64,000 nucleotides of DNA from Halobacteriales archaeon QH_7_66_36 (GTDB lineage: Archaea > Halobacteriota > Halobacteria > Halobacteriales > Haloarculaceae), in contig PXQV01000011.1 of assembly GCA_003021175.1 (NCBI GenBank), positions 1 through 64,000 of the forward strand, written 5' to 3'. Below are positions 36,087 to 37,914 of this stretch, one piece after another. The translations under genes and the position numbers were made by a program. Every line of letters starts with the position of its first letter. Positions within the stretch are counted from its first letter, which is position 1. The notes under the pieces were generated by a model, which did no database searches, was not told where the DNA came from, and saw only the letters and a program-made list of their open reading frames with translations.

Positions 36087-36659
36087 TCAGCCGGTGTCGT
36101 ACTTGTACGTCGCCTCGTCGGGGTCGATGCCAAAGTCCTCGGGTGACTCCTCCGGTTCGGTCTCCGCCTCGGCGACTTCGGCGGCGTCCTTGAACCGCTC
36201 GCGGAGGCGGTCGGGCATCCTGAACCGGTCAGCGTCGATGACCATCGGTACCACCGTGTCGTGGAGCTCGCGCTTCTCCGCGAGCCGTTCCTGTAGGCTC
36301 TCGGGCAGGTCCGACTCGTCGACCGGGCGGAAGCCGAACTGCGCGAGATACTCGTGGGCGGGGGTCAGCGCGAACACCCGTTCGTACCCCTCAATGCCGG
36401 CATTCCGGAGCAGGCGCTCGACGATGTGTGCGCCGACTCCCTGCTCGCGCCAGCCGTCGAGCACGCCGATGCTCGTCAGCTCACAGACGTCCTCGTCGCG
36501 GTGGACGCGGAAGCGACCGAAGCCGGCCCGCGTCGAGGACTCGTCGTCGACGGCGATGACGTAGTCCCGTGACCGGAACGCCGTGTCGTCGAGCCCCATC
36601 TCCTCGATGTGGTCGAGGAGCCACGCTTCGTCCCGGTTTCGCGCGTCCCTGACGTACAT
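36087..36659 (-). CDS. GNAT family N-acetyltransferase
   Basis: A 190-residue protein. Residues about 1-130 are a GNAT fold: the beta4 strand CELTSIGVLDGWREQGVGAHIVERLL includes the acetyl-CoA loop REQGVGAH, and YERVFALTPAHEYLAQFGFRPV supplies the C-terminal half. A charged helical tail of about 50 residues follows and ends KYDTG. The FALTPAHEYLAQFGF segment resembles ArgA-type and related amino-acid acetyltransferases. The substrate is unknown. The open frame continues upstream through the hairpin array to 37403, but the ATG at 36659 is the family start. Confidence 0.8.
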   Translation of the reverse strand: MYVRDARNRDEAWLLDHIEEMGLDDTAFRSRDYVIAVDDESSTRAGFGRFRVHRDEDVCELTSIGVLDGWREQGVGAHIVERLLRNAGIEGYERVFALTPAHEYLAQFGFRPVDESDLPESLQERLAEKRELHDTVVPMVIDADRFRMPDRLRERFKDAAEVAEAETEPEESPEDFGIDPDEATYKYDTG

Positions 36660-36718
36660 GACAGGCGGTATGACGGCCGGGGTGAAAACTCCTCGCCAGC
36701 CGTGAGTGGTGCTGTTTA

Positions 36719-37191
36719 GTTGAGTCTGAAACTGCGGTGACAGGGGCGACGACGGCTTTGGAAGCCCCTGCGCGCTCGACTCGATGGGCTCGCTGTCTCC
36801 AGAAATCGGCGATTTCTGGGAGTGAGCGGAGCACTGCTCCGCGAGCTCCGAGGAAGCTCCGCTTCCTCGGGATGACGAAAGACGGCACACCGTCTTTCGA
36901 ACCACGGTCCTCGTCGGTCGCGTCGCTCCCGCCTGCGGTCTCCTCGCGCGGCGGTGCCGCACGAGCGGCCCGAGGTGGCTCCGCCACCTCACTGCTTGCG
37001 TCGTCCGCAGAAATCTTCGATTGCTGCTGGGCTGCGGAAGACGCTCCGCGTCTTCCGAACGCCCGTCGTCGTCGAGCGCGAGGCCGGCAGAGCCGGCCTC
37101 GACTGGTCGCGGCGGCACGGCCGCCGCGCACGCACAGCCCCTTCCAGTCCCACCCGGAGCGGTTCTCTCGCCAGCAACCGCGTAACTCAAC
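36719..37191. repeat. Array of about ten short hairpins bounded by GTTGAGT/ACTCAAC
   Basis: The 545-bp space between two minus-strand genes is filled with unrelated inverted repeats. Stems with arm lengths are: 36741-36770 (7 bp, 16-nt loop), 36799-36819 (9, loop GGC), 36826-36842 (7, ACT), 36848-36870 (10, TCC), 36876-36899 (10, loop CACA), 36972-36990 (8, TCC), 37008-37026 (7 of 8, TTC), 37035-37057 (10, TCC), 37079-37101 (10, AGA) and 37108-37128 (9, ACG). GTTGAGT at 36719-36725 and its complement at 37185-37191 enclose the set. I see no gene in it. Confidence 0.85.
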
Positions 37192-37204
37192 ACGACCGGC
37201 AGGA

Positions 37205-37780
37205 TTAGTCGTAGGCGCGCCAGAGATACCGACTCGCGTACGAGCGGTACGGTTTCCATCGGCTGGCGTGCTCGGACATGCCCGCGCGGTCGCTCTCGTC
37301 GAAGTCGTACAGCGTCGCCATCCCCTTGCGGATGCCGAGGTCGCCGACCGGGAACACGTCCTCGCGGGCGAGTACGAAGATGAGGAACATCTCGGCGGTC
37401 CACTCGCCGACGCCGGTGATCTCGGTGAGCGCGGCCGTCACCTCGTCGTCGTCCATCGCGCCGAGTCGGTCGACAGAGAGGTCGCCGTCGCGGAACGCTT
37501 CGGCGATGTTGCGGACGTAGTCCACCTTCTGTCGCGACAGTCCCACGTCGCGGAGGGCGTCTTCGTCGGCCGCGAGTATCGCCCCGGGCGTCACCTCGAA
37601 CCGGTCGAACAGGCGCTCCTCGATGGCTGCCGCGGAGGCCGTCGAGAGCTGTTGGTTACAGACGGAGACGACGAGTCGCCCGAACGGGTCGTCGGCCGGG
37701 TCGAGACCGAGTTCGCCGTGCTCGTCGACCAGCGGCGCGAGTTTCGGGTCGTCGCGCAGCGTCTCGTATGGGCCGGTCAC
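37205..37780 (-). CDS. AlkA-like HhH-GPD DNA glycosylase
   Basis: A 191-residue base-excision glycosylase of the 3-methyladenine (AlkA) type. The helix-hairpin-helix is EITGVGEWTAEMFLIFVLARED. The catalytic aspartate lies in FPVGDLGIRKGM, as in AlkA. SVCNQQLSTASAAAIEERLF is the preceding conserved helix. No iron-sulfur cysteines are present. It removes alkylated purines from DNA in the cytoplasm. The GTG at 37780 (VTGPYETLRDD) is the likely start; upstream in-frame codons run into the divergent gene's leader. Confidence 0.88.
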   Translation of the reverse strand: MTGPYETLRDDPKLAPLVDEHGELGLDPADDPFGRLVVSVCNQQLSTASAAAIEERLFDRFEVTPGAILAADEDALRDVGLSRQKVDYVRNIAEAFRDGDLSVDRLGAMDDDEVTAALTEITGVGEWTAEMFLIFVLAREDVFPVGDLGIRKGMATLYDFDESDRAGMSEHASRWKPYRSYASRYLWRAYD

Positions 37781-37914
37781 GCCTGAACACCTCGCGAATC
37801 GGGCGTCGATGTGCGGTCGCGCATGTTCCGACGCGTGGCCGGGAGCAAAAATGGGTGACGGACGGGGTCGCCGCGGCTGGACGGGTTTTTGTACCTCGAC
37901 CCACACGGGCGAGC

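Follow-up and report, generated by a model that had tools for sequence, protein, structure and literature searches.

The hairpin array described here is, at a probability that we put at roughly 85%, the inside of a haloarchaeal non-autonomous transposable element (MITE) that would have been moved by an IS6-family transposase, with a chassis that holds hairpin cassettes and hairpin arms that are kept by template switching. The window, which is the whole stretch of 64,000 nucleotides that was analysed, carries one copy of 490 bp (Table 1). The preliminary description had offered, as the third of its guesses, a non-autonomous element with arm-to-arm copying and preserved loop size. This was largely borne out by a repeat family with terminal inverted repeats (TIRs), 8-bp target duplications, empty sites, concerted arm changes and 3-nt loops in 163 of 182 hairpins.

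The dense hairpin cluster itself was found to be real. Seven hairpins with arms of at least 8 bp lie within the 490-bp element, whereas 1000 dinucleotide shuffles of the same sequence gave a mean of 0.054 such hairpins and a maximum of one. Hairpins with a 3-nt loop and arms of at least 8 bp occurred at 5.9 per kb inside copies of the element and at 0.14 per kb elsewhere in the window's genome (G000), so that the density equalled neither that of the shuffles nor that of the genome background. The array had rightly been described as neither a tandem repeat nor a CRISPR: the identical repeats and regular unique spacers of a CRISPR array were not found in it, and the tandem repeat reading was rejected. 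The claim that the stems are unrelated does not hold at the family level, because the same cassettes recur, with their order kept, in other copies. The imperfect hairpin at 37008-37026, proposed to be a decayed copy of the one at 36799-36819, is instead the second hairpin of cassette c2, and its C.T mismatch was found again in most c2 copies of G000. The inverted heptamers GTTGAGT (36719) and ACTCAAC (37185) are indeed present, but their register differs from that of the true inverted ends, and they do not bound the element. The spacer between mutA and the array holds a GNAT gene; gene calls were based on open frames and Pfam.

Table 1. Positions of the element, its parts and the flanking genes in the window
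Feature	Positions	Strand	Details or basis
Whole element, 490 bp, canonical orientation minus strand	36708..37197	-	Left and right ends of many copies aligned; TIR search
Terminal inverted repeat GGTGCTGTTTAG	36708..36719	.	End alignment and TIR search
Other terminal inverted repeat CTCAACACGACC	37186..37197	.	End alignment and TIR search
Core motif A (conserved; GGGACTGGAAGGGGC in minus-strand reading), bordering the array on its outer side	37137..37151	-	Common to the 62 copies (scan requires core A)
Core motif B (conserved; GGGGCTTCC in minus-strand reading), bordering the array on its other side	36760..36768	-	Alignment of copy ends, genome scan
Cassette c1	37079..37128	-	Hairpins 37108-37128 and 37079-37101, linker ACCAGT
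Cassette c2, 59 bp	37002..37060	-	GTTC-hairpin A (37035-37057)-GCAGCCCAGCAG-hairpin B (37008-37026)-CTGCGGACG
Cassette c3	36943..36990	-	Hairpins 36972-36990 and 36943-36965, linker GGCCG
Cassette c4	36848..36899	-	Hairpins 36876-36899 and 36848-36870, linker GTCATC
Two further hairpins	36799..36842	-	36826-36842 and 36799-36819
Perfect hairpin	36799-36819		9-bp arms, loop GGC
Perfect hairpin	36826-36842		7-bp arms, loop ACT
Perfect hairpin	36848-36870		10-bp arms, loop TCC
Perfect hairpin	36876-36899		10-bp arms, 4-nt loop
Imperfect hairpin	36943-36965		
Perfect hairpin	36972-36990		8-bp arms, loop TCC
Imperfect hairpin	37008-37026		Loop TTC
Perfect hairpin	37035-37057		10-bp arms, loop TCC
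Perfect hairpin	37079-37101		10-bp arms, loop AGA
Perfect hairpin	37108-37128		9-bp arms, loop ACG
GNAT acetyltransferase gene, flank, context only	36087..36659	-	PF00583
HhH-GPD DNA glycosylase gene, flank, context only	37205..37906	-	PF00730

Partial matches to the element numbered 64 in G000 (2.6 Mb in 18 contigs, 96.7% complete) and 80 in a second genome of the same genus, the incomplete assembly G005, and four other genomes of the genus had none or one. A scan for the two core motifs and the ends, which covered 1.62 of the 2.61 Mb of G000 (62%), recovered 62 complete copies, which measure 124-503 bp and have the two cores as well as the TIRs. This number is a lower bound, because most other hairpin-dense windows of G000 are further copies with decayed ends. 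The 62 copies share TIRs of 12-16 bp of the GGYRGTGTTCAG type. In the window copy the reverse complement of CTCAACACGACC is GGTCGTGTTGAG, which is identical to GGTGCTGTTTAG at 9 of 12 positions. Plasmid, phage and viral collections were also searched and contained essentially no copies.

A target duplication of 8 bp (six or more of the eight flanking bases repeated) was detected at 28 of the 62 copies, as compared to about 1.1 expected by reshuffling, and perfect 8/8 duplications were found in other genomes too (L025, L028, L038, L181). Precise empty sites were identified in G000 for three copies of its sister genome G005 (L027, L182, L296). The family is dispersed, and its members are present or absent at the same site between sister genomes. 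The same ends were found to enclose IS6 transposase genes (PF13610) in relatives: a decayed one of 694 bp with the duplication CTTCAGCT in G003, of the same genus, and one of 697 bp with the duplication TCCACCGG and an open frame of about 212 amino acids in G093. PF13610 genes were flanked by GGCGGTGTTCAGATAA / GGTAGTGTTCAGATAA in L177 and by GGTAGTGTTCAG / GGCGGTGTTCAG in L147, and the copies carry these same ends. IS6-like inverted ends, an 8-bp duplication and the lack of a transposase gene are thus combined in copies of 124-503 bp, as in IS6-family MITEs; the window copy itself has no 8-bp duplication. Since the ends and the duplication length match the IS6 family of the relatives, the element is, to judge from its sequence, best filed as an IS6-type MITE. 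No PF13610 match was detected in G000 or in G005, the latter an incomplete assembly, so that an IS6-family transposase would have mobilised the element in trans, as its ends suggest.

On the minus strand the array comes after core A (GGGACTGRAAGGGGC) and before core B (GGGGCTTYC), with one end of the element outside each core. An array is missing from the smallest copies (about 129 bp), copies of a common class of about 218 bp have a single outer palindrome, and longer copies have paired-hairpin cassettes added in fixed slots; the window copy holds c1, c2, c3 and c4 as well as two additional hairpins. Between G005 and G000, orthologous copies differed by whole cassettes (451 and 326 bp in one case, 216 and 398 bp in another). 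The ortholog of the window copy measures 382 bp and is without c2 and without the block 36826-36870. The element is a chassis between conserved ends, in which paired-hairpin cassettes are gained and lost.

The chassis extends well beyond the genus. Core motif A was found in many haloarchaeal genera, and the middle of a 218-bp copy matched 212 of 292 genomes and 58 of 77 genera. In the examples that were read from other genera the core stood mostly without IS6-type ends, so the chassis either predates the present ends or is spread more widely than they are; the interior is older than these ends or separate from them. Six loci of other genera (L040, L042, L044, L355, L363, L368) had the core motifs within other outer ends, of the CAGCCAGAAAGCCCC, AGCGTGAAAGCCCC and CAGGGGAAAGCCCC types.

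The flanks of the window copy bear on its missing target duplication. In G005 one copy stands between the same glycosylase flank and a second flank (flank X), with GTCCTGCC on both sides. The window copy has the duplication half ATCCTGCC at the glycosylase side and the GNAT gene at the other side, and flank X and the partner half GTCCTGCC adjoin a different copy, on contig C6 of G000. The two halves of one duplication are at two copies, as expected from an exchange between these copies, by which the window copy lost its target duplication. A second such exchange was found for L291/L302 as compared to C15:129514 and C14:37747. On contig C3 of G005 there is also a glycosylase site without the element, but it is not base-identical to the filled flanks. 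Judged by these junctions, the copies exchange sequence, and the exchanges include those that broke the flanks of the window copy.

Mismatches were few in the 182 hairpins (28 in 1679 pairs), and nine of them were C.T, the type of mismatch found repeatedly in hairpin B of c2 in G000. When arm covariation between copies was checked, the arms were found to covary with almost no wobble or one-sided intermediates. Among 25 distinct c2 units, most of which were found with a pattern that fixes hairpin B and leaves hairpin A free, 99.8% of the cells were paired, with 37 two-sided changes, one wobble and one mismatch, and none of 500 shuffles reached the observed pairing or covariation. In fixed slots the arms were constant and the 3-nt loops variable. 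Of the 35 loops that differed at all three positions from the commonest loop of their slot, 20 were its exact reverse complement, with 1.3 expected. In one orthologous pair, identical arms enclose the loop GAA in G005 and the loop TTC in G000.

Paired changes and loop inversion are known effects of template switching between arms (PMC8794818), and we infer that arm-to-arm switching in DNA, and not selection on RNA, is the simplest single cause of the paired changes and loop flips in the element. In this quasipalindrome correction, replication would change over to the opposite arm as its template, rewriting both arms and sometimes turning the loop, and the hairpin arms would stay perfect because of this switching. 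The changes resemble the template-switch mutations reported in RNA hairpins, with their multi-base compensatory changes and loop inversions; there, loop inversion is rare because RNA loops are constrained (PMC8794818), whereas the loops of the haloarchaeal element flip often. The copies are related, so the above counts are not counts of independent events, and exchange between copies also occurs. Recombination between copies, together with different cassette lineages, might explain the arm covariation with no template switching at all. The copies clearly recombine, they have cassettes in common, and homology-driven exchange of whole hairpins could mimic some of the concerted arm changes. However, exchange of directly aligned copies does not invert loops on unchanged arms, and many kinds of c2 stems stand between constant linkers in unrelated places, which makes recombination a rather unlikely sole cause.

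We consider it improbable that the array is a structured noncoding RNA, or an RNA-level regulator or terminator, with stems maintained by selection on RNA folding, as the preliminary description had also suggested. Strong covarying hairpins would suit such an RNA, and the palindrome-rich PATEs of haloarchaea are reported to be transcribed as noncoding RNA (PMC10544981). Nevertheless, the mismatches of distinct hairpins had no strand bias (six G.T and eight A.C) and so did not point to selection for one RNA strand. Wobble intermediates were hardly seen, loops are free and invert, and whole cassettes are gained or lost between orthologous copies. No Rfam family scored above its gathering threshold for the array, and elsewhere in the window only a tRNA did. 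Host-kept sites bound by a nucleoid protein, recombinase or cruciform-binding factor would fit the density and perfection of the hairpins and the intergenic position of the array in the window, but they are highly improbable, given that the copies are mobile and differ in presence between close relatives, that the stems have no common sequence and that four other genomes of the genus are essentially devoid of copies. No host function is needed to account for the IS6-type MITE, and its array is most likely parasitic DNA shaped by a mutation mechanism.

Cassette c2 was also found outside the element, as a unit of 56-59 bp that reads GTTC-hairpin-GCAGCCCAKCAG-hairpin-CTGMGGACG and has mostly GACG or GGCG as its left flank. 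Among 392 genomes of the class, the pattern of its second half was present in 49, and among 86 genera in 26, counts that include copies within arrays; the reversed pattern was found in none of the same 392 genomes, and viral contigs had no match to the c2 pattern. In a search for half-units around genes, 105 of 111 matches to left halves (some counted twice) had the right half. Standing alone, c2 was located in IS6 transposase genes, a Macro-domain gene and an intein of the PolD large subunit, and tnpB-like genes carry it at two places; the intein and tnpB labels come from reading translations. In the Macro-domain gene a 58-bp unit (L332:1477-1534) causes a frameshift. The gene of its relatives is uninterrupted, and in the two that were aligned over the site CTCGACG is directly followed by CCGAGTA, so the 58 bp were inserted there after GACG; a third relative is without the unit by length. 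Judged by such sites, c2 also inserts alone outside the element, usually right after GACG.

Several other c2 contexts were observed. A 54-bp c2-like unit (L330:1481-1534) lies in frame within the putative intein of a DNA polymerase D large-subunit gene. At nearly one position of a tnpB-like gene, c2 was found in several genera near 1479-1534 (L320, L324, L326, L331, L336, L338, L341), at the DLG/DLN-type motif and mostly frameshifting. In another tnpB-like group a 57-bp c2 with a 4-nt loop occupies one place (L333, L334, L335, L325 at 1478-1534) and is in frame in three of four. A further repeated context of c2 was seen in L312, L313, L315-L317, L327 and L328, where the left flank is T-rich and ends in ACG and the right side has GGACGTTTTT.

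It is possible, although doubtful, that the cassettes are mobile in their own right. In that case c2, and probably c1, c3 and c4, would insert as single-stranded hairpin pairs beside tetranucleotides, into genes and into each other, and would build arrays in older elements; copying from the other arm, and not sequence, would keep the freely changing stems palindromic. A Y1 transposase as the mobiliser of c2 is a guess. In the search of G000 and G005 there was one Y1 transposase gene in G000 (L309) and none in G005. L309, the sole Y1 element of G000, showed no c2-like ends that would make IS200/IS605 ends a source of c2. A c2-like hairpin pair was seen in its TnpA region, and a four-hairpin array follows a nearby SDR-like gene (L309:1501-1815 and the 3' end).

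Compared with known systems, the element has the 12-16 bp IS6-matching ends, the 8-bp duplications, the non-coding content and the many copies of IS6-family (IS26/IS240-type) MITEs. Unlike these, it varies in length (124-503 bp) as paired-hairpin cassettes are gained and lost, and in other genera its core is found within different ends. MITEHsal2 of Halobacterium measures 411-413 bp and has duplications of 6-8 bp (PMC10264941). The PATEs of Haloquadratum are likewise haloarchaeal, transposase-free and palindrome-rich, and a terminal-only form of 52 bp has been proposed to move (PMC3119063). PATEs are derived from IS605 and by their published definition have neither inverted ends nor target duplications (PMC3119063), whereas the element described here has both and is not a PATE. 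With the SMRs of Haloquadratum (PMC3119063), c2 shares the habit of a very short repeat that inserts into other mobile elements. It is set apart by description from SMR-A, of about 110 bp with inverted ends and near-terminal palindromes, as c2 has 56-59 bp and two hairpins and usually follows GACG. The element is not an SMR, for which the published definition gives ends unrelated to known transposons and no duplication; its ends match IS6 and it has duplications.

The REP/BIME/REPIN sequences moved by TnpA-REP (PMC6006769) are similar to c2 in that it is a hairpin pair with a foot tetranucleotide and a target tetranucleotide. A REPIN consists of one REP in inverted copies with GTAG/GTGG, whereas the two hairpins of c2 differ from each other and have variable stems; its foot is GTTC, not GTAG/GTGG, and its left flank mostly GACG or GGCG. 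No TnpA-REP gene linked to c2 was found when G000 and G005 were searched for Y1 genes. Like the palindromic elements of Rickettsia (PMC10969869 and general knowledge), c2 is a short palindromic unit within genes and is sometimes in frame (the PolD intein and one tnpB group). It differs from their description in that many c2 insertions shift the frame. We found no description of this element family in the literature, of which our coverage was thin for subscription journals.

The copies mark chromosomal exchanges between close relatives. If the cassettes are mobile units, c2, found within IS6 transposase, tnpB, intein and ordinary genes as a unit of 56-59 bp, would belong to a class of minimal mobile DNA that is defined by shape and not by sequence. 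How arms change together without broken intermediate states is an old question. The loops of this family seem to be free of RNA constraint, and paired arm changes and loop flips can therefore be counted directly. With dozens of copies per genome and cores in most haloarchaeal genera, the family is a natural record of hairpin-templated mutation.
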